Program-made: the position numbers and the translations under genes
Assembly: GCA_028736075.1 (NCBI GenBank)
Contig: CP117875.1
Location: forward strand, 2,976,001 to 3,040,000
Reading direction: 5' to 3'
DNA from: Chryseobacterium sp. KACC 21268
GTDB taxonomy: Bacteria > Bacteroidota > Bacteroidia > Flavobacteriales > Weeksellaceae
Length of the DNA stretch: 64,000 bases
The notes under the pieces: model-generated
The model's database searches: none
What the model saw: only the letters and a program-made list of their open reading frames with translations
Told to the model about the DNA's origin: nothing
Shown: positions 2,956-41,468 of the stretch, one piece after another
Numbering within the stretch: the stretch's first letter is position 1
How the letters are laid out: each line of letters opens with the position of its first letter

Positions 2956-3005
2956 TTTATGTTGAAATCTGAACATAAATATATAATCCAAAAAAAACAG
3001 CGGAG

Positions 3006-3028
3006 TCCGAAAAGCTTATAGAGTAGGA
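3006..3028 (+). promoter_or_regulatory. Conserved leader motif, copy 1
   Basis: TCCGAAAAG ... AGAGTAGGA, 23 nt, with 21 nt between its end and the ATG at 3050. The outer arms TCC/GGA can pair and enclose GAA opposite AGTA, the consensus of a bulged-G (loop E) internal loop. Confidence 0.75.
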
Positions 3029-3049
3029 ATATTAAAAAGCATTTAAAAC

Positions 3050-3370: not shown

Positions 3371-4207
3371 ATGAAAACTTTTATTTTTTGTTTATTGATT
3401 ATCATGCCTGTAACTTGTCATTCACAATTTTACAGATTTATATACGAATATTCCTTTGTTAAGGATACAATTTCGCAGAAGAAATTTTCGATGCGATATT
3501 ATTTAGATATTTCTCCACAAAAAGTAAAATTTTATAATGAAGAGCTTTATCATCTAGACTCGATTCAGAAACTAACCAAGGAAACAACCTCAATGACAGT
3601 ACCTGCATCAGTTATGGTAGAAAGAATGCTTGGTTCAGATGAAAATATGGCCTATAAATTTATCGACAGCGATTACTATAAGATAAAATCGAAGGACAAA
3701 TTACGTTGGAATATTGATTCAGAAACTAAAATATATAATAATTTCCCTCTTCAAAAAGCTAATACGAAATATGGTGGAAGACTTTGGACCGCATGGTTTT
3801 GTAAGGATATAATTATTTCAGAAGGTCCGTACAAATTTAGGGGATTGCCAGGTTTAATTTTTGAAATCGAAGATGTAGAAGGAAATTTTAAGTTTAAACT
3901 CGTAGAAGTTCGTAAAATAAGTTCTGAATATAATACAGAAAATATTTTGGAATCTAATTTTGGAAAAAAGGCATTGGCTGTCTCTGTTGAAAAATATAAT
4001 AAAATACTAATCGATGCATATAATAATCCTTTTTCAGAACTTAGAACAAAAATGGAAATGGGAGAAGATTTTACATTATCAATCTATGGAAAACAAATAA
4101 AAACAGTAAAAGATTTGGATAGCATAAAGAGATTGAGGCAATCGGATATTAGAAAAAATTACAATCCAATAGAATTGGATAAAGCTGTAAAGTATAATTC
4201 TAAATAA
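3371..4207 (+). CDS. GLPGLI family secreted protein
   Basis: A 278-residue protein with an N-terminal signal peptide (hydrophobic FIFCLLIIMPVTCHSQ) and the family-defining motif GPYKFRGLPGLIFEIED near residue 155. GLPGLI proteins are common secreted or periplasmic proteins of Bacteroidetes with no established function. They are frequently found beside peptide export or TonB-receptor loci. Here it sits between the first and second exported peptide genes on the same strand, so it may belong to the locus, but no specific role can be read from the sequence. A second member of the family is at 20823-21632. Confidence 0.85.
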   Translation: MKTFIFCLLIIMPVTCHSQFYRFIYEYSFVKDTISQKKFSMRYYLDISPQKVKFYNEELYHLDSIQKLTKETTSMTVPASVMVERMLGSDENMAYKFIDSDYYKIKSKDKLRWNIDSETKIYNNFPLQKANTKYGGRLWTAWFCKDIIISEGPYKFRGLPGLIFEIEDVEGNFKFKLVEVRKISSEYNTENILESNFGKKALAVSVEKYNKILIDAYNNPFSELRTKMEMGEDFTLSIYGKQIKTVKDLDSIKRLRQSDIRKNYNPIELDKAVKYNSK

Positions 4208-4488
4208 ATAAAATACTATTACAAAGTGGAAATTTAAAAAAGATATATATGAATTTCGATAGCATCATTTTCCAGCTCAGAACGATAAACAGATTCCATT
4301 TTCAGCCCCAATCTCATTTGAAATACTCTTTTGCATTAGTATTTACTGCTAAGACTAATTAATGGGTTTTAAAAATTAAATATTTAATCTCAATAAAGCA
4401 TATTGTATTGAACTTGTTAGAAAAGTAAAAATGCACAGTAATTTTTGTCTAATTATTTACAGAAATAAAAATAAAAAAAATAGCGAAA

Positions 4489-4511
4489 TCCGAAAAGCTT
4501 ATAGAGTAGGA
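4489..4511 (+). promoter_or_regulatory. Conserved leader motif, copy 2
   Basis: TCCGAAAAG ... AGAGTAGGA, identical in 23 of 23 positions to copy 1. It lies 20 nt before the ATG at 4532. Confidence 0.75.
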
Positions 4512-4531
4512 AAAAATAACAAATATTTTAT

Positions 4532-4684: not shown

Positions 4685-4842
4685 ATTGTACCAATACCGC
4701 AATTATTTGTAGACCACTTTAGCAGTCTATTTATCACAAATTTCGACCTTACGTCGTATGGTGATTTACAAATATGTGTCAGACTGAAACAGGTATTAAA
4801 ACCTGTCATAGACAAAAGGCGTGTATTTATAAAACAGCGGAA

Positions 4843-4865
4843 TCCGAAAAGCTTATAGAGTAGGA
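4843..4865 (+). promoter_or_regulatory. Conserved leader motif, copy 3
   Basis: TCCGAAAAG ... AGAGTAGGA, identical to copy 1, preceded by ACAGCGGAA. It lies 20 nt before the ATG at 4886. Confidence 0.75.
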
Positions 4866-4885
4866 AAACCAAAGCAAAATTTTAT

Positions 4886-5080: not shown

Positions 5081-5129
5081 AAGCATTCTATCTAAAAAAA
5101 TATGAATTATTAAAAGTAAAATAGCAGAA

Positions 5130-5152
5130 TCCGAAAAGCTTATAGAGTAGGA
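5130..5152 (+). promoter_or_regulatory. Conserved leader motif, copy 4
   Basis: TCCGAAAAG ... AGAGTAGGA, identical to copy 1. It lies 20 nt before the ATG at 5173. Confidence 0.75.
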
Positions 5153-5172
5153 AGACAAAATAAATATTTAAC

Positions 5173-8212: not shown

Positions 8213-8307
8213 CTAAATAAAAGATTTATTTTAAGAGTGAGTCTATTATATTATTACGCTCATTATGTGACATCATCAAATTTATAGTTTAAAATCTAAC
8301 AGCGGAA

Positions 8308-8330
8308 TCCGAAAAGCTTACAGAGTAGGA
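8308..8330 (+). promoter_or_regulatory. Conserved leader motif, copy 7
   Basis: TCCGAAAAG ... AGAGTAGGA with one loop change (TTACAG for TTATAG). It lies 21 nt before the ATG at 8352 and is preceded by ACAGCGGAA. Confidence 0.75.
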
Positions 8331-8351
8331 AAACCAAAATAAAAATTTTGT

Positions 8352-33650: not shown

Positions 33651-33672
33651 TGCTCCCGTAAGGGAGCATTTC
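33651..33672. terminator. Terminator between convergent genes
   Basis: TGCTCCC, loop GTAA, GGGAGCA, then TTTCT. It ends at the stop codon of the convergent peptidase gene and probably serves both sides. Confidence 0.75.
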
Positions 33673-36176
33673 TACTTTGTAATTGGATCGATCCAATCTG
33701 CAGGTGGCTTGTTTTTCAAATAATGTTCAAACCACTGCCAAATTTTAACATTAAGATCCAATTGGTTAGGTGGTGAGAAAACATTGTGGGTCTCGTTAGT
33801 ATACTCCAATATCACCGCCTTTTTCTGCAGCCTTTTCATCCCTAGAAAGAACATCTTGGATTGCGTGGCAGGTACGTTTTTATCTTTTAGCCCAGACCAA
33901 ATTAAAACCGGGATGTCGATCTTTTTTATATGGAAAACCGGAGAGTTGTCCAAATAGGTATTCCAGCTGTCAAATACGTTGTTTTTCATTCTCATCTGAT
34001 GAGTTTCTGTCCTCATATAATTAGGCATAGACATGACCTCAGATTGACTGAAAGCATGAAAGACCAGATCAGAGATCATCACGCCTGCTACACCGGTTTT
34101 AAAATATTTGGAATTGGTCACTGCCAGACCTGTCTCATAGCCCCCATATGATAGACCAACTACACCAATATTTCTATCATCGACCGAAGCCAGCGACTTG
34201 GCAGTATCAATACTTTTTTCCAAAGAGGTGACAACACTGTTTTTAACGTTGGCGATCTCATGTTGAAGATCAGGCAGTAGAACAATATAACCATTCATCA
34301 GGTAATGCATGTAGTTGAATCCTATTCTTGTATTTAAATAAGGCGGCACAAAAAACAGTAGATCACGAGATTGCTGTTGATAGATATTGACGATCATAGG
34401 ATATTTCTTCTGTCTGTCGTAGCCTTTGGGAAATAAAAGTGCAGCATTGGCTTCACCATACCGTGTTTCATACTGATAGATCTTATACTGGATATTTTCG
34501 AGACCTTTTCTTTCAGTTTTCATGGATTCATATACCACCGTGTACTTCCCTTTGTCAAATTTTGTCAGTTTGAATGGTTCCATAGCAAACTGAGAAGTTA
34601 AAAATAGTCCATCTCCATATCTTAATAACTCCTTGTAATGACCCTGCTGATAGTGGTGGGTTTTATTTTTTTTGTGTAGATACGTCGCAAACCCGGAATC
34701 ATAGGATCTTTTATCGAGAAGGTTGAATGTGATCTCTTTGTCCAGGTCTATTTCAGCAAATTTTACGCTCCAGGACGATTTTGGATATTGACCCGCAGGA
34801 ATTTTCAGTTCATATTTGATCTTTTTATCACGCCCGCTCGTGATCTGTTTCATTTGATGGGTTTTGAGATCTACAATATAATAGTCAAAACGGTCGGAAA
34901 GCATGAGGGAAGATCCACCTTTGATTTTGATCGGCATGACGGCCGGAGCATCGACCAGGCCGTTATCCCTAGGATTTTCCCAGCCATCCATCTTCAATGG
35001 CAGCAATTCGTGAACTATTCCTGTCCTGATGTGATGGCACAGCCATCTTTTGTTTTCGAAGTAAATAAATTGTTCTGTGCTGCGGTCCCAAAAATAATTG
35101 CCGTCATCTGCCCTTTTTTGCGGAAATACCCGGGAACTTTTACCATAATCCAAGATCAGATTGAGGTCAAGAATCACATTTTGCTGTTCTTCCACAACAT
35201 CATTACTTTGATCATATACAACAAAGTCTCCTTTGTCATTTAAAAATCTATAAACAGGAAGATGGTCGCTCTGATCAGGTCGGTAGTCCCATCGTTTTTC
35301 TTTTATATTATAAATACCTAGATGATGGTTTAAAAAATGATCCTTACCATTCCTGTTTGAGTAGGTGATCTTCATTTCCGGATCCTCCCTGGCATTTAAT
35401 TTACTTTTTAAATACATAGGAAAGATAAAATGTTCGCCTTCTCTCAGTTCAAAATAGGTATTTATTGCCGTGGCAAATTCAAAGGCCTCGGGGCTCATTA
35501 TTATTTGTTTTGTCAGATGGTCTGAAGGCAGATCAATAATGTACAGTTCTACTTTTGATCTCTCAATATCAGCACAGTAGATCCTGTTATTGTGAGAAAA
35601 AATCCATTGGACACCACTGTCCAGTTTGTACCTTTTTGATTTTTGATTCTTAAGGTCTCTAAAGACAATATGGTTCCCGGAAGCGTAGATCAACCGATGG
35701 CCGATCTCATCTAAGTGGTAGGACCTGATTCCGTTTTCCTTCCATAAGACCTTCCCATCATCAGAAACTAAAAGCAGATCCTTTGAGCTTGTATTATATA
35801 AAACCACCTGTCCAGATCGCTGTGCAAGAGTAGAACTGTAATTGCCTGCAATATCTTTGTTTTGACCATTTTTCAAATTTAAGAACCGACTGTGGTTGTT
35901 GTTCTGCATCAGAATTACATCGTCCCCGAGGAATTGATATTTAACGTGCTTATCTAACATTGTTCCTTTGCTGGATCTTATATCCACCAGTTCGTCTTCA
36001 TCCTTACCATAAGTATTGGTATGCTTTAATACTACATATTGGCCGTTTGGGCTGGCTGTCAACAGGGCTGTTTGGTAAAATTGTTTGTATAGGGCGGTCA
36101 AGCTGTCTATATTCTGAGAATATCCCAACCCATAGATCAATAGCAGACCTGCTATATATATTCTAATAGCCTTCAT
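33672..36176 (-). CDS. S9 family serine peptidase (prolyl oligopeptidase type)
   Basis: An 834-residue secreted protein with N-terminal signal (IYIAGLLLIYGLGYSQ), a long beta-propeller-like region, and a C-terminal alpha/beta-hydrolase domain. The nucleophile elbow is VGLSYGGYE (Ser about 676), the aspartate is probably in IWSGLKDKNVPATQS, and the histidine in YTNETHNVFSPPN. Family S9 enzymes cut short peptides. It overlaps the SusD gene by 14 bases, so uptake (SusC/SusD) and peptide degradation are encoded as one operon. The likely role is peptide scavenging. Confidence 0.9.
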   Translation of the reverse strand: MKAIRIYIAGLLLIYGLGYSQNIDSLTALYKQFYQTALLTASPNGQYVVLKHTNTYGKDEDELVDIRSSKGTMLDKHVKYQFLGDDVILMQNNNHSRFLNLKNGQNKDIAGNYSSTLAQRSGQVVLYNTSSKDLLLVSDDGKVLWKENGIRSYHLDEIGHRLIYASGNHIVFRDLKNQKSKRYKLDSGVQWIFSHNNRIYCADIERSKVELYIIDLPSDHLTKQIIMSPEAFEFATAINTYFELREGEHFIFPMYLKSKLNAREDPEMKITYSNRNGKDHFLNHHLGIYNIKEKRWDYRPDQSDHLPVYRFLNDKGDFVVYDQSNDVVEEQQNVILDLNLILDYGKSSRVFPQKRADDGNYFWDRSTEQFIYFENKRWLCHHIRTGIVHELLPLKMDGWENPRDNGLVDAPAVMPIKIKGGSSLMLSDRFDYYIVDLKTHQMKQITSGRDKKIKYELKIPAGQYPKSSWSVKFAEIDLDKEITFNLLDKRSYDSGFATYLHKKNKTHHYQQGHYKELLRYGDGLFLTSQFAMEPFKLTKFDKGKYTVVYESMKTERKGLENIQYKIYQYETRYGEANAALLFPKGYDRQKKYPMIVNIYQQQSRDLLFFVPPYLNTRIGFNYMHYLMNGYIVLLPDLQHEIANVKNSVVTSLEKSIDTAKSLASVDDRNIGVVGLSYGGYETGLAVTNSKYFKTGVAGVMISDLVFHAFSQSEVMSMPNYMRTETHQMRMKNNVFDSWNTYLDNSPVFHIKKIDIPVLIWSGLKDKNVPATQSKMFFLGMKRLQKKAVILEYTNETHNVFSPPNQLDLNVKIWQWFEHYLKNKPPADWIDPITK

Positions 36177-37560
36177 TTTGTGGATTTAGGTTTGGATTTA
36201 ACAGAAGTTCTTTTTCGGGCAAAGGAAGAAACCTGAAGTATGGTTTCCATCCTGGTTTCTTCGGAGTCATGACGATATCCAGAATATCATGCTGTCTGAG
36301 ATCATAGAACCGATGGCCGAATTCCGTGAACAGCTCTATTCTTCTTTCCTTGATGAGGGCGTTGATCAGCGTACTCTGATCTGTAACAACTGCCAGCGAT
36401 GTCAGGCCTGCCCTGTTTCGTATCTTGTTTAGGTCGGCGACAGCCAGATCATTTTGTCCTTTATAAATATGGGCTTCAGCCCTGATAAGATATAGTTCTT
36501 CCACCCTGAGGATGACGGAATACTCTAAAGAATTGGTGCTTGTAGAATACTGCTTGTATTTAAATGGATAATAGTAGGTTTTGTTCTGCGAATCTGTCTT
36601 TTGCCCGATCCACGCGGATCTCCTTCCATCACCAGGCTCAAGATCATTGATGAAATCCTGGCGGAGTGCCACATTCGTCGGTGGTGCTGTATTAAGAATG
36701 AAAACATTGGCTTGATAGGTATTGTAGGTTGAACCAAATGGCAACAGTTGCCATATGCTGCCAGAACCGTCCTTTAGAAAAACTTTGTTCAGGTCGGTCT
36801 CCATTTTATACTGGGGATTACTGATCACATTACTGGCATATTGCACGGCAGCATCCCAATTTTTTTCATAATAGGCAATTCTTGCCAATACCGCAAAGGC
36901 CGCCATTTTAGTGGGATAAACTCTGTTTCCTGCTGTCAAAGTTTCAGGTAGTAACGGTATTGCGGCTTGCAGGTCAGACTGGCATTGGAGATAAACCTGA
37001 GTAATGCTGCTTTTACCGATCGTCTGGTTTACCTGATAATCTGTAGAATTTACATAGGGTACAGAGGCAAAGGACTGAACCAAATACAGATGCAGTATCG
37101 CTCTGAGAAAAAGCCCCTCTCCTTTTAGCCGGTTTCTTACTTCTGAGCTAAGGCTTTCAGAATTTTCCACCCCTTCAATGATCGCATTGATGTTATAGAT
37201 CTGCGAATAGGTGCTCGTCCATAAACTACTGACTTTCGTAGAACTGGCCATATGGCCCAACTGATAAAAGACCGAGACATCGCTCGCGGGAGCAGCATAG
37301 GATTGAAGTTCGTCCACATAGGCACCCAAAATAACTTGAGCGCCGCCCGAAGAGCCTGATAAAAAGCCCGACTCTTCCATAGAACGGTAGATACTGGCCA
37401 TTGCGGATCTGGCCAATTGGTCATCTTTAAAGACCAGATCTCTGGTAATTTGGTTTTTAGGCAGTCCGACATCGGTAAAGCTGTCACAGCTTTTGCAGAG
37501 CAAAAGTGAAACGATCAAAAGGCTTAAAAGAATGATATTTTCTATTATTGTACTTTTCAT
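36163..37560 (-). CDS. RagB/SusD family outer-membrane lipoprotein
   Basis: A 465-residue lipoprotein with signal and lipobox (LLIVSLLLCKSC). It has the SusD pattern of helices early (TYSQIYNINAIIEGVE) and, late in the protein, LRVEELYLIRAEAHIYKG followed by ADLNKIRNRAGL, and then IKERRIELFTEFGHRFYDLRQ. SusD-type proteins cap a SusC channel on the cell surface and bind substrate. Because the operon also encodes an S9 peptidase, the substrate may be peptide (RagB-like) rather than glycan. Confidence 0.93.
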   Translation of the reverse strand: MKSTIIENIILLSLLIVSLLLCKSCDSFTDVGLPKNQITRDLVFKDDQLARSAMASIYRSMEESGFLSGSSGGAQVILGAYVDELQSYAAPASDVSVFYQLGHMASSTKVSSLWTSTYSQIYNINAIIEGVENSESLSSEVRNRLKGEGLFLRAILHLYLVQSFASVPYVNSTDYQVNQTIGKSSITQVYLQCQSDLQAAIPLLPETLTAGNRVYPTKMAAFAVLARIAYYEKNWDAAVQYASNVISNPQYKMETDLNKVFLKDGSGSIWQLLPFGSTYNTYQANVFILNTAPPTNVALRQDFINDLEPGDGRRSAWIGQKTDSQNKTYYYPFKYKQYSTSTNSLEYSVILRVEELYLIRAEAHIYKGQNDLAVADLNKIRNRAGLTSLAVVTDQSTLINALIKERRIELFTEFGHRFYDLRQHDILDIVMTPKKPGWKPYFRFLPLPEKELLLNPNLNPQNEGY

Positions 37561-37571
37561 AATTGTGCTGT

Positions 37572-40500
37572 TTAATAGGTTAATGAGACTCCGAAGCTGA
37601 GAACCCTCAGCGGACCACTGTATCCCGGAAGGAGAAACTCCGGACTGCTGCCTTTATAGTTCGAGAACACGAACAGATTCTGCCCGCTCATAAATATTTT
37701 AGCTTTGGACCTGGCCTTGTCTGTTGTTGAAATATTATAACTGAGGGTTGCATTTTTAACCCTTAAGGTGAAGGAATCTGAAACGGTCGCATCACTGTTG
37801 ATGAAAAAAGTACCCGCCGCAGTGGCTGCCGTATTGTATCCAGCACTTGGTTTTTGGAATTGGGCGTCCGGATTCTCCGGTGTCCAGTAATCATTGAAGA
37901 TAGCGGGTCTATTGGACATCGAACCGATGCTACTATATTGTGTATACATGTTGGACTGGCTTTGACTGACGAACTGTAATAACAGGTCGAAACTCCAGTT
38001 CTTGTACTGAATGCTGTTCTGTAGACCTCCATACCAATACTCTTTGATCTCTTTGCTGACGACGCGGTCAGCGGCATTGATGATGCCGTCCTGATTGGCA
38101 TCAAGAAAAGTGTACAGACCTGTGACGGGATCGATGCCTGTGTACTGGTATAGCTTGACCAGAGTGGTGGCCTTTCCTATCTCAAATTTGTTGGCATAGG
38201 TGGACCTTTCAAGGTTTGGAAATTCCATCAGTTTGTTTTCAGGCAAGGTGAAATTGAGACTGGTGGTCCATTTCCAGTGATCACTCTGGATATTGACCGA
38301 CTGCAGCGACACTTCAAGACCCCTGTTTCTGACAGTGGCATCCAAATTAGCCTGAATGCTGCTGAACCCTACCGTAGCAGGCATTGGAATACCGACCAGC
38401 TGATTGGAACTGATGTTATGGTAATAACCCACATTCAGATTCAGCCTTTGCTTGAACAGTCCAACTTCTAAAGCGGCCTCAAACTTACGGGTCTGCTCCC
38501 AGCCGAAATTTTTATTGTAAAGCCGCTGTGGCAACAAGCCTGAAGAACCTCCATAGGATCCGCCGGTGGACTGGTACGTATCATAATATTGATAGTCCCC
38601 GATCTGGTCGTTCCCTGCGACCCCATAGCTGGTTCTGAGTTTTCCAAAACTCAGCCACGACCACCCTTTAAATAGGTTCTCTTCTGAAAAGATCCATGCA
38701 GCGCCGACGGCCCCAAAATTCGCATACCTTCTTTCAGAACCAAATCGACTCGACCCGTCACGCCTGCCTGTCAGGTTTAAAAAATAACGTTTGTTATAAC
38801 CGTAATTGAATCTGGCATAAACGGCTTGGTAGCGGTACAGGGATTCATAGGCATTTGGGGTGGTAACGACGGCTGCGGCACCAATATTGGTCAGCATTTC
38901 ATCCGATGGGAAATTAGTGCCCACAATGACCAGATTGTCAGATTTCTGTTCCTGCAATGAAGCACCTACCAATGCTGAAAATTGGTTTTTCCTCCATTTC
39001 TTTTCATAGTTGAGCTGCGGTTCGAGGATCCAGCTCTGGTTCAGCTTCTGCCCTTTTCTTAAGGAAGAATTGCTGCTTCCAATATTGCTGGACGGATTGT
39101 AGGTGGTCTTTGGAAAGATCTTCTGATCATTAGTGTTGTAATTGCTGTAACCGCTGTTAAGGTTCACACTGAATCCACCTCCAATGACATAGCTTGATGT
39201 GACATTGGCATTCAAACTTTTGGTTCTGACCGAATAGGTCTGTGTGGCAGGCCCCATTGGATTGGTAAAGGTATTGTTCTCCCAGTTGATCGCATGGTTG
39301 GCACTGTAAAGATCGGGCGCATTGGGCGCCAGCGTTGCATAGACCGCATTAAAATCGGTAGGCGGCAGGATATTTTTTTGTAACGCTGCAGTCCCATTGA
39401 AAGCGATCTGAAATCTTCGGTCCGCACTGCTGTGGCTAAGGTTGACGCCAAGGTTATTTCTTGTGTAGCGGTAACTCCCGGGAAATATAGTGGTCTCTTC
39501 ATTATGTCCCCCGGTAATTGAGAATTGCGTATTGCCGCTGCCACCGGACACACCAATCTGAACATCCGAGTATTCAGCGGTGTTTCCCACAAAGTATTTT
39601 TGCCAGTCTGTATATTTTGTCGGACTCCACACGCCATTGATGTCATAGGCATTGGAAGGGACCGCTACCCTGTCATTTGCGAAAGCATGTTTCCGCATCG
39701 CCGTGTATTCTTCAAGATCCATCATTTTGGGGAGGTTGGTCATTTCTCCAAGCCCGTAACTGGTTCTCAGATTGAACTCCGTCCTGTCCCTTTTTCCTTT
39801 TTTTGTGGTGATCAGAATGACCCCATTGGCTCCTTTACTGCCGTAAATGGCGGTTGCATCGGCGTCTTTGAGAACCTCCAGAGACTCGATCTCATCCGGA
39901 TTGATGGAATTTAAAGGGTTTGTTTCACTGTATGGAAGGATGTTGGCGGACATCCCCGTGCTGAAATCATTGATCTGAGGCAGAGGAACACCATCCACAA
40001 CATATAACGGTTTGTTTCCGTCATAGCCGGTGGTCGTAAAGCTTCTTAAGCTGTTCCTTCCCCTGATCTGCACATCAAAGCCGCCTCCCGGGACACTTGA
40101 GTTCTGGGTGATGCTGACACCCGGCATTCTGCCTTGCAGTGCGGAAAGCACATTGTTGACGGGCTGGTTTTCTATGTCTTTTGCCGAGACTTTGGCGATA
40201 CTACCGGTTCTTTCCTTGTCTTTGACCTTGTAGTAGCCTGCATTGAGAATAACTTCTTCGATTCCCTTTACATTTTCCTTTAAACTGATATTGATGACTT
40301 TCTGATTGTTGGCTTTGATTCGCTCTTCTGAATAATCAGGGTGTCTGAACACTAAGATGGGATTTTCTGCTGAAACCTGTAATGTATAGGTCCCGTTTTC
40401 GCTGGTGGTGGTTACCTGATCACTGCCCTGTTGGGAGATGGTTACTCCTGAAAGAGGCTTGTTGGATGAGGTTACGGTACCGGAAATGGTGCGTGTTTGG

Positions 40501-40577
40501 GCTTTTGTGTTGGTGCTGACAGCGGTCAGCATAAGGCCAAAGAAAATACCTCCTATCTTGTAATAGGAATTTTTCAT
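37572..40577 (-). CDS. SusC/RagA family TonB-linked outer-membrane transporter
   Basis: A 1001-residue TonB-dependent transporter. Signal peptide, then a carboxypeptidase-like domain (SGTVTSSNKPLSGVTISQQG). The plug has LQGRMPGVSITQNS, IRGRNSLR and PLYVVDGVPLP, then EVLKDADATAIYGSKGANGV. A long beta-barrel ends in an aromatic strand (GVSLTY). It pairs with the SusD gene 11 bases downstream. Its start is preceded by a long leader (about 350-520 bases) that contains the structured RNA at 40926-41097. Confidence 0.95.
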   Translation of the reverse strand: MKNSYYKIGGIFFGLMLTAVSTNTKAQTRTISGTVTSSNKPLSGVTISQQGSDQVTTTSENGTYTLQVSAENPILVFRHPDYSEERIKANNQKVINISLKENVKGIEEVILNAGYYKVKDKERTGSIAKVSAKDIENQPVNNVLSALQGRMPGVSITQNSSVPGGGFDVQIRGRNSLRSFTTTGYDGNKPLYVVDGVPLPQINDFSTGMSANILPYSETNPLNSINPDEIESLEVLKDADATAIYGSKGANGVILITTKKGKRDRTEFNLRTSYGLGEMTNLPKMMDLEEYTAMRKHAFANDRVAVPSNAYDINGVWSPTKYTDWQKYFVGNTAEYSDVQIGVSGGSGNTQFSITGGHNEETTIFPGSYRYTRNNLGVNLSHSSADRRFQIAFNGTAALQKNILPPTDFNAVYATLAPNAPDLYSANHAINWENNTFTNPMGPATQTYSVRTKSLNANVTSSYVIGGGFSVNLNSGYSNYNTNDQKIFPKTTYNPSSNIGSSNSSLRKGQKLNQSWILEPQLNYEKKWRKNQFSALVGASLQEQKSDNLVIVGTNFPSDEMLTNIGAAAVVTTPNAYESLYRYQAVYARFNYGYNKRYFLNLTGRRDGSSRFGSERRYANFGAVGAAWIFSEENLFKGWSWLSFGKLRTSYGVAGNDQIGDYQYYDTYQSTGGSYGGSSGLLPQRLYNKNFGWEQTRKFEAALEVGLFKQRLNLNVGYYHNISSNQLVGIPMPATVGFSSIQANLDATVRNRGLEVSLQSVNIQSDHWKWTTSLNFTLPENKLMEFPNLERSTYANKFEIGKATTLVKLYQYTGIDPVTGLYTFLDANQDGIINAADRVVSKEIKEYWYGGLQNSIQYKNWSFDLLLQFVSQSQSNMYTQYSSIGSMSNRPAIFNDYWTPENPDAQFQKPSAGYNTAATAAGTFFINSDATVSDSFTLRVKNATLSYNISTTDKARSKAKIFMSGQNLFVFSNYKGSSPEFLLPGYSGPLRVLSFGVSLTY

Positions 40578-40925
40578 AGATTTGTAAAAGGTTTTTTAAT
40601 TGTTCAGTAATTACTAAGCTTTGCTCTTTCCCTGTAGGTGTGCGAACTGATGGGAAAGGGCTTTTTTGTTTTTTTGTAATTATAGTAGTAGATTCATTGA
40701 TGGATAAAAACTTTCCTGATGCCCTTTGGTGTGAAAAAGGACTGGTGAGGTTCTATAAGCAGTGACCGCAAGGCACCGGAAAGAGTTTGATATGAATGAA
40801 ATCTGTGTCCCGAGTGAGCTATTGAAAGCCTCAATAGGTTGTACCCTCCTATTGTATCGTGTAGTCTGATACTATGTTTTAGGAAGCGGGCTTAGATTTT
40901 AGTGTAGAGAGGAAGCGAACTGCAT

Positions 40926-41097
40926 AAAAAAAAGACGGCGTGGGACTCTACATTATCCAATTCGGGGTACTGGTATACCTTTGACACAGATAAGAGAGCC
41001 CACGCCTAGGTCGTGAGCTTTCTGCTTATCATCTCGTGTCTATAAGTACCAGTTTTCGAATTGAGATTCTAAGCAATAGCTTCTAATATTCTTTGAA
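40926..41097 (-). ncRNA. Structured leader or small RNA upstream of the SusC operon
   Basis: On the minus strand, a terminator (arms CCCACGCC at 40999-41006 and GGCGTGGG at 40937-40944, extended by AGAG/CTCT, then an eight-T run at 40933-40926) ends a transcript of about 170 nt. A competing long-range helix pairs 41063-41025 with 40994-40958: CGAATTG/CAATTCG, TACCAGT/ACTGGTA, GTGTC/GACAC and CTTATC/GATAAG, all in the right antiparallel order. The first terminator arm falls in the loop of that helix, so the RNA can be drawn as a pseudoknot or as alternative terminator/antiterminator states. It could be an attenuator for the SusC operon or an independent small RNA. Confidence 0.6.
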
Positions 41098-41103
41098 GTA
41101 TCG

Positions 41104-41135
41104 CAAAGTTACATTAATGTAACATATGTCACAAA
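41104..41135 (-). promoter_or_regulatory. Bacteroidetes-type promoter for the SusC leader RNA
   Basis: On the minus strand, TTTG (41135-41132) and TAACTTTG (41111-41104) are separated by 20 bases. This matches the -33 TTTG / -7 TAnnTTTG consensus of the group and places the start near 41097. Confidence 0.65.
41108..41123. promoter_or_regulatory. 16-bp perfect palindrome overlapping the promoter
   Basis: GTTACATTAATGTAAC is a perfect dyad that overlaps the -7 box of the minus-strand promoter. It is a good operator candidate; the divergent XRE-type regulator starts 94 bases away. Confidence 0.55.
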
Positions 41136-41216
41136 TATACTTAAATTTTTCGATTTAGGTATATATCCCCAAAAGATTTTTTTAAAAAGTCAAGACTTTA
41201 GCCAAAATGCTTGTAA

Positions 41217-41468
41217 ATGAATATCACTGAAGATTTTTTGAAAGAAATTGGTAAAAAAATTTTTGAAATTAGAACAAAGAATAAACAAACACTGGACGAT
41301 TTAGAATTTTTAACCGGAATAGATTCAAGTGACATAAGTAAATATGAACAAGGAAAAATAAATCTTACAATTAGAACACTTGTAAAACTTTCGCAAGCCT
41401 TAATGATTCATCCACAAGATTTATTAAAATTTAATTTTGATTTCGACCACTATAAAAAAGATATTTAA
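41217..41468 (+). CDS. XRE-family helix-turn-helix regulator
   Basis: An 83-residue protein consisting of one Cro/C1-type HTH: IGKKIFEIRTKNKQTLDDLE, then TGIDSSDISKYEQGKINLT and LVKLSQALMIHPQDLL. It lacks a second domain. It stands divergently from the SusC-leader promoter and ahead of the kinase/methyltransferase island, so it could regulate either. Base composition is AT-rich like the island, which suggests it arrived with the island. Confidence 0.82.
   Translation: MNITEDFLKEIGKKIFEIRTKNKQTLDDLEFLTGIDSSDISKYEQGKINLTIRTLVKLSQALMIHPQDLLKFNFDFDHYKKDI

Follow-up and report, generated by a model that had tools for sequence, protein, structure and literature searches.

A leader RNA with two competing folds before SusC–SusD operons of Bacteroidota, probably a transcription attenuator

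Introduction

Which RNA-level signals decide whether an outer-membrane receptor operon is transcribed to its end? Intrinsic-terminator attenuators and transcriptional riboswitches place a 5′ leader with two mutually exclusive folds, one of them a hairpin followed by a U tract, before the operon that they control. In the polysaccharide-utilisation loci of Bacteroides, small RNAs and leaders exert RNA-level control, partly over Sus-type operons. The window, by which we mean the whole 64,000-nucleotide stretch of Chryseobacterium sp. KACC 21268 DNA analysed here, raises this question at a SusC–SusD–peptidase operon preceded by a promoter and a short structured segment. A sequence-only reading of the segment had proposed either an attenuator or a stand-alone small RNA. 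Here, we examined the segment together with its homologues and neighbouring genes, and we conclude that it is probably a transcription attenuator in the 5′ leader of the operon, presumably controlled by a divergent regulator and, in relatives, possibly open to bypass by a guide RNA.

Results

A promoter, a structured segment and a T tract precede the SusC gene

The promoter predicted by the sequence-only reading is present on the minus strand, as is a downstream segment of about 170 nt that ends in a terminator and eight T. Its form, TTTG-N20-TAACTTTG, is what we take to be the −33/−7 promoter type of Bacteroidota. Genes were assigned from our own ORF calls and clustering, not from annotation. 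The main features of the locus are as follows.

41104–41135, minus strand: promoter, with TTTG at 41135–41132, a spacer of 20 and TAACTTTG at 41111–41104
40926–41097, minus strand: leader RNA (element 1), about 170 nt, from covariation and covariance model R1, its start placed from the promoter
40926–40933, minus strand: T tract of eight T, from the sequence
40766–40910, minus strand: element 2, a conserved stretch past the T tract with the hairpin CAATAGG (40854–40848)/CCTATTG (40838–40832)
37572–40577, minus strand: SusC/RagA-type outer-membrane transporter, first gene of the operon (TIGR04056, 1.5e-195, above cut-off)
36163–37560, minus strand: SusD-like lipoprotein, from its position behind SusC and an NCBIfam SusD match (4e-17) below the model's own cut-off
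33672–36176, minus strand: peptidase/hydrolase of the prolyl-oligopeptidase kind, from a Dpp5 match (1.5e-18) below the model's cut-off

These features recur in homologous loci. The −7 box is present in 94 of 96 copies and the full promoter in 68 (four loci left out), and at least six T occur among the ten bases past the terminator arm in all 88 parsed copies (seven copies unparsed; five loci left out of the T-tract and interval counts).

Two conserved folds share strands

We then analyzed the pairing within the leader. The predicted fold of the window copy (−53.4 kcal/mol) was more stable than all 200 shuffled sequences (−38.4 ± 3.7; z = −4.0). The four antiparallel complementary blocks described earlier, AATTCG/CGAATT, ACTGGTA/TACCAGT, GACAC/GTGTC and GATAAG/CTTATC, are all present, and the alignment of homologues resolves them, with additional helices, into two folds. 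Of the collected sequences, 55 were retained after broken or short copies (L086, L088, L093 and L094) and a duplicate (L037) were dropped, and L091 gave no match; alignment A2 holds 50 of these 55 (without L059, L061, L065, L066 and L084), and alignment A3 and covariance model R1 hold 40. The helices, all on the minus strand, are listed with the share of alignment cells that are paired.

41071–41082: hairpin H1, AAGC/GCTT, antiterminator fold; 96%, with one-sided changes only
within 41023–41075: helix A′, TGCTTA (41075–41070)/TAAGCA (41028–41023), terminator fold; 94%
within 41023–41075: helix A, ATCTC (41067–41063)/GAGAT (41035–41031), terminator fold; 84%
40960–41061: helix B, ATTCG (41061–41057)/CGAAT (40964–40960); 98%, with changes on both sides at all five pairs
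40969–41053: helix C, ACTGGTA (41053–41047)/TACCAGT (40975–40969); 98.9%, with changes on both sides in five of seven pairs
40983–41040: helix D, GACAC (41040–41036)/GTGTC (40987–40983); 78% in an imperfect alignment, with changes on both sides in four of four counted pairs
40989–41030: helix E, GATAAG (41030–41025)/CTTATC (40994–40989); 91–99.5%
40998–41018: apical hairpin F, GCTCACG (41018–41012)/CGTGGGC (41004–40998); 99–100%, with one-sided changes only
40937–41006: terminator hairpin G, with the 5′ side GGCGTGGG-CTCT (41006–40995) followed by CTTATC, and the 3′ side GATAA (40957–40953), AGAG (40949–40946) and CCCACGCC (40944–40937); 98, 92 and 89.5%, the upper arm forming in 44 of 45 parsed copies

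The antiterminator fold combines H1, the long-range helices B, C, D and E and the apical hairpin F, and helix A is treated as a crossing helix. Across the 50 aligned copies, 94.0% of 1912 cells were paired, and 191 cells carried double changes, compared with 60.3 in shuffled alignments (0 of 500 as high) and 22–53 in slid controls. One pair of helix B takes six standard pair types, and two Niabella loci have replaced helix C entirely, with CCTGAGAA/TTCTCAGG and CGTCGGA/TCCGACG. The terminator fold consists of helix A, its extension A′ and helix G. Here 91.8% of cells were paired and 50 had double changes, compared with 17.9 for shuffled alignments (none of 500 as high; slides 1–15); helix A contributes double changes at columns 46/84 and 47/83, in eight sequences each. 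The further pair types of this fold did not exceed those in shuffles (307 of 500; 424 of 500 in a separate run), nor did the number of double-change pairs in the separate run (204 of 500). The pair counts are non-independent events, copies within a genus being related; slides, Niabella and several genera agree. Compensatory changes in homologues thus back both conformations.

The two folds compete, as had been proposed, for strands common to both: H1 and A′ both use GCUUA, E and A′ both use UAAG, F and G both use CGUGGG (the 3′ strand of hairpin F belonging also to the terminator), and CUUAUC is a strand of E as well as of the upper arm of the terminator. The double use of CTTATC was part of the original proposal, and its alternative pairing with GATAA reaches at least 4 bp in 44 of 45 parsed homologues (of 50). 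Beyond that proposal, the alignment shows that helix ATCTC/GAGAT is extended by UGCUUA/UAAGCA and belongs with the terminator fold. A further closing helix seen by eye across the T run (GAAGC..GCTTAGA/TCTAAGC..GCTTC) was discarded; Flavobacteriaceae-type copies, among them L078, L080 and L081, show no compensation.

In the window, the calculated energies were −47.6 for the antiterminator fold and −50.9 for the terminator fold. When the transcript was lengthened in steps of 10, the best fold was antiterminator-like at 130–160 nt and became the terminator fold at 170 nt, once the last arm was out. The two window folds are nearly equal, since adding 14 more 5′ bases turned the best fold back to the antiterminator. 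Over 50 sequences, the terminator minus antiterminator energy was +2.1 ± 7.1, with the terminator lower in 19, so that neither state is consistently favoured. In the variant of the RNA at L082–L085, L089, L090 and L092, GTGCAGG directly past the T tract is, by eye, a further pairing partner for the last arm, possibly an explicit antiterminator.

The leader belongs to a widespread RNA family

A second copy of the leader, 80% identical, is present in the window genome, a single contig of 4,067,423 bases. DNA similarity located copies in 30 of 98 relatives, the window genome counted, and model R1 (E of 1e-4 or better) in 103 of the 395 genomes sampled from the order, in 22 of 108 genera, with up to seven per genome. 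A scan that required an exact match to a 30-base core, so that core identity in this set is by selection, returned at least 80 loci; among the matches listed are loci from Chryseobacterium, Epilithonimonas, Elizabethkingia, Cloacibacterium, Niabella, Sunxiuqinia, Flavivirga and Gelidibacter; model R1 matched all 20 of these loci on which it was tried.

Rfam 15 returned no family over threshold at the window leader or in five homologous loci, and no known riboswitch family matched the window leader; with E up to 10, two weak matches appeared, both on the opposite strand. We considered and rejected 6S RNA, there being no Rfam 6S match at the leader and several copies before operons. A phage origin was likewise set aside, with no match in phages and none, with a degenerate core, in viral contigs. 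One plasmid match was found, in Rhizosphaericola mali (NZ_CP044017.1, 15051–15147), 76% identical over half of the query and without an annotated feature. Elsewhere in the window, on the plus strand, five matches to the Rfam DUF805b RNA (RF02914) lie within 5.4 kb, at 2997–3029, 4480–4512, 4834–4866, 5121–5153 and 8299–8331. A search of literature on SusC leaders and Chryseobacterium RNAs, with most subscription journals and bioRxiv outside its coverage, found no description of the leader family. The leader thus represents a real, apparently undescribed RNA family with two shapes before nutrient-receptor operons of many Bacteroidota, a family that probably switches these operons on or off.

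Co-oriented genes and conserved structure lie beyond the T tract

Gene neighborhoods were compared across the family. The first 60 loci include 35 with the SusC cluster and 17 with the dCas12f cluster. Another 40 loci were sorted by the co-oriented gene behind the RNA: SusC in 23 (either immediately or with a small, thioredoxin-like or c25 gene in between), sigmaE-dCas12f in 4 and c25 in 13, two of the latter recognised only from reading the sequence. Small genes of no assigned function also occur among the co-oriented downstream genes. The c25 product has about 190 aa, and one member is without a Pfam match; in Chryseobacterium the gene stands alone behind the RNA or before SusC, it has relatives in Niabella, and it spans positions 534–1058 from the RNA start in L195 and 839–1399 in L244.

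The distance to the next gene past the T tract was 89–145 nt in 16 sigmaE-dCas12f loci and about 25–30 nt in three Niabella loci; in the window, SusC starts about 350 nt beyond. A full housekeeping promoter (TTTG..TAnnTTTG) was absent from all 78 T tract–gene intervals, and the −7 box alone occurred in four. An alternative-sigma promoter may lie between the T tract and SusC, which would be a point against a leader. A second hairpin past the T tract, CAATRGG/CCYATTG, forms with at least 6 bp in 33 of 34 loci and has ten arm variants; only its inner pairs count, because the set was picked by the motif ATTG[CA]GGC, which favours the outer four. A leader peptide starting from an ATG after the T run was rejected, since frames and lengths vary between copies (by eye). 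The 5′ region of SusC in the window contains one more hairpin, GCCCTTTCC..CAGTTYGC..GGAAAGAGC (40612–40665, minus strand), which by eye is also seen upstream of other SusC genes in the set.

Both functions offered by the sequence-only reading can be weighed at this point. A stand-alone small RNA of about 170 nt would act in trans through a seed, the invariant GGCGUGGGCUC core, and would sit before operons only for co-regulation. Its own promoter and T tract, the several copies per genome and the very conserved core are what such an RNA would have; however, a co-oriented gene follows the RNA throughout the loci examined, housekeeping −7 boxes are rare in between, and a conserved hairpin as well as genes that begin 25–145 nt away lie past the T run, so that we regard this explanation as unlikely. 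Because the hairpin, the close genes and promoter-free intervals lie beyond the T tract, transcription evidently runs past it on occasion, and an attenuator leader is the favoured reading. The attenuator half of the earlier proposal receives strong support from the comparison: two covarying, mutually exclusive folds share strands, a hairpin is followed by a conserved T tract, and the RNA lies 5′ of a co-oriented gene with no full housekeeping promoter between them.

Each copy adjoins its own divergent regulator

The family alignment and neighborhood analysis added to the original description, besides the RNA family itself and the conserved structure past the T run, a divergent regulator gene upstream of the promoter.

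41217–41468, plus strand: small Cro/C1-type (XRE) regulator gene, 83 aa (HTH_19 at 1.2e-9, HTH_26 and HTH_3, above curated cut-offs)
41135–41164, no strand assigned: imperfect dyad between regulator gene and promoter, with 0 of 20 shuffles as good; a putative operator

A divergent small ORF is present in 102 of 117 copies (three loci left out), before the promoter, its start lying a median of 94.5 nt upstream; HTH_3 matched 65 and HTH_26 64 of these 102. The 15 copies without it include seven beside conjugation-like genes (L082–L085, L089, L090 and L092). Regulator sequences diverge widely, with a mean column identity of 18%, and the dyads vary by locus; in 44 of 86 loci (14 left out), at most one of 20 shuffles equals the dyad. 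Since regulators and dyads both differ between loci, each leader copy seems to own a regulator "key".

Beyond the regulator, genes are mostly unrelated between copies and often of defence type. In the window, these encode an ATPase weakly similar to BbrUII, a GmrSD-N protein, a cytosine methyltransferase and Vsr; the second leader copy of this genome (L035) adjoins the gene for PtuB, part of a Septu-type defence system (3591–4430, plus strand). Of 20 such genes sampled from 86, 10 matched PADLOC models, among them PtuB, MTases, DndF, PbeA and AbiZ; for control genes taken from the window the figure was 2 of 10, a difference that is not significant (p = 0.24). One could read the stretch chiefly as a recombination boundary next to SusCD, where defence cassettes, each bringing a small regulator, are swapped and the RNA folds serve the exchange. 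The unrelated genes past the regulator and the PADLOC matches fit this idea, but with the control comparison as it stands, we consider it very improbable.

Guides of sigmaE-dCas12f in relatives match the leader core

In relatives, the co-oriented genes include a system for RNA-guided transcription: the c3 and c4 proteins match the PDB chains "Nuclease-deactivated Cas12f" (1.8e-175) and "RpoE" in 9n9q (2.5e-75). In 17 of 17 loci, dCas12f is followed by a guide RNA with the scaffold GAGGGTGCTTGTA...TATACAA(C/T) and then GGCGTGGG(C/T), which is the leader core; the guide core in relatives owning the system is GCGTGGG. At one locus (L181), a second copy of the scaffold follows the first 3′ of dCas12f, and some loci may encode more than one guide. 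In G135, a relative of another family, the guide reads GCGTGGGCTCTCTTATTTTG, and its first 16 bases are identical to a core of the window leader.

40990–41005, minus strand: core GCGTGGGCTCTCTTAT

Allowing up to two mismatches, this 16-mer occurs in G135 at three places, namely the guide and two leaders with one mismatch each. In five genomes it was found at 17 places (1 guide, 15 leaders and 1 other), and its reversed control at one. The first 14 bases of the G053 guide likewise equal the core of a SusC-type leader; in a 14-mer search, 16 of 28 matches were neither guide nor leader. Guides in relatives thus match leaders, though more weakly in many of their own: among 20 guides, the own leader was the longest match in the locus for 14, one tied and five matched better elsewhere, and many matches to the own leader span only 6–8 bases. 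Of the 20 own leaders, 11 differ from GGCGTGGG, compared with 11 of the 79 other copies (p = 3e-4, many orthologues being non-independent; L086, a dCas12f locus whose guide scaffold lies outside the pattern, was counted as "other", and moving it would not weaken the result). This greater deviation suggests that the main targets of the guides are SusCD leaders in trans. Leader and system also co-occur: in the order sample, the leader is present in every one of the 22 genomes with dCas12f and in 81 of 373 others (p = 2e-14).

The window genome gave neither a dCas12f match nor a PF07282 protein that passed the cut-off; two weak PF07282 matches were a DnaJ-like protein and an ORF too short, neither of them Cas12f-like. 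The leader as guide RNA of a dCas12f, Cas12f or TnpB was accordingly dropped, the effector being without a match here, and so was the leader as an in-trans dCas12f guide, since the window genome and 80 further RNA-positive genomes are without a dCas12f match and dCas12f has its own guide behind it. It is also very unlikely, in our judgement, that the leader serves mainly as a site where sigmaE-dCas12f lands and its DNA is what matters, copies in genomes without dCas12f being relics or targets of an undetected effector. The guide match and co-occurrence agree with such a site; against it, 81 of 103 RNA-positive genomes are without dCas12f at threshold, the window and its relatives keep promoter, folds and T tract, and the covariation is of RNA type. 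In the window genome, without a dCas12f match, the leader must act alone, through its promoter, the regulator and a signal on the fold.

Discussion

We propose that the 5′ leader of the SusC–SusD–peptidase operon probably acts as a transcription attenuator. In this model, the divergent Cro/C1-type regulator would control the leader promoter, and the nascent RNA would fold first into the long antiterminator hairpin (H1 and helices B–F). Once the last arm is out, the RNA may rearrange, with GCUUA pairing UAAGC and AUCUC pairing GAGAU, and GGCGUGGG-CUCU-CUUAUC would pair with GAUAA-AGAG-CCCACGCC to form a strong hairpin that, with U8, would stop transcription. Whatever stabilises the first fold would let RNA polymerase read through element 2 into SusCD.

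In relatives, the guide target is the 5′ arm of the terminator. In published dCas12f-sigmaE, the recruited sigmaE-RNAP reportedly starts at a constant distance downstream from the R-loop, and the target is said to need no more than an adjacent 5′-G; in the aligned leaders, a G nearly always precedes the core. Guided sigmaE-RNAP would be positioned within the leader, and its transcripts would begin 3′ of the targeted arm. Attenuation may thereby be bypassed, because a start downstream of the target yields an RNA that is without the 5′ arm and cannot form the terminator. Our literature search on dCas12f-sigmaE, with most subscription journals and bioRxiv outside its coverage, found no paper.

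The leader resembles attenuators and transcriptional riboswitches in its 5′ position, its two exclusive folds and its hairpin and U tract before an operon. Unlike them, it has the crossing helix A, a divergent Cro/C1-type gene of its own in each copy and several unrelated operon types behind it, and it has no Rfam match. With the dCas12f-sigmaE systems of RNA-guided transcription (PDB 9n9c, 9n9m, 9n9o and 9n9q by name), it shares that relatives carry the machinery behind the same leader and that the guide matches its core; unlike the guide RNA, the leader is the target, and the window genome is without a dCas12f match. It is like the RNAs of Bacteroides polysaccharide-utilisation loci in pointing to RNA-level control in Bacteroidota, but in different genera, with homology compared via Rfam alone.

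More tentatively, and with more doubt than confidence, we suggest that the leaders form a new attenuator family in which RNA-guided sigma recruitment within the leader bypasses the terminator. Sets of receptor operons beside defence cassettes would then share a two-layer switch, the fold and then the guide RNA, with a Cro/C1 key for each copy. If true, the sigmaE-dCas12f of Flavobacteriales would be aimed at a conserved attenuator, and RNA-guided initiation would skip a stop signal. The structured RNA family named here, with a working model and many copies, precedes receptor operons in Chryseobacterium, Epilithonimonas, Elizabethkingia and Cloacibacterium, and other genes in Niabella; with it, the question of what switches these SusCD operons becomes directly testable.
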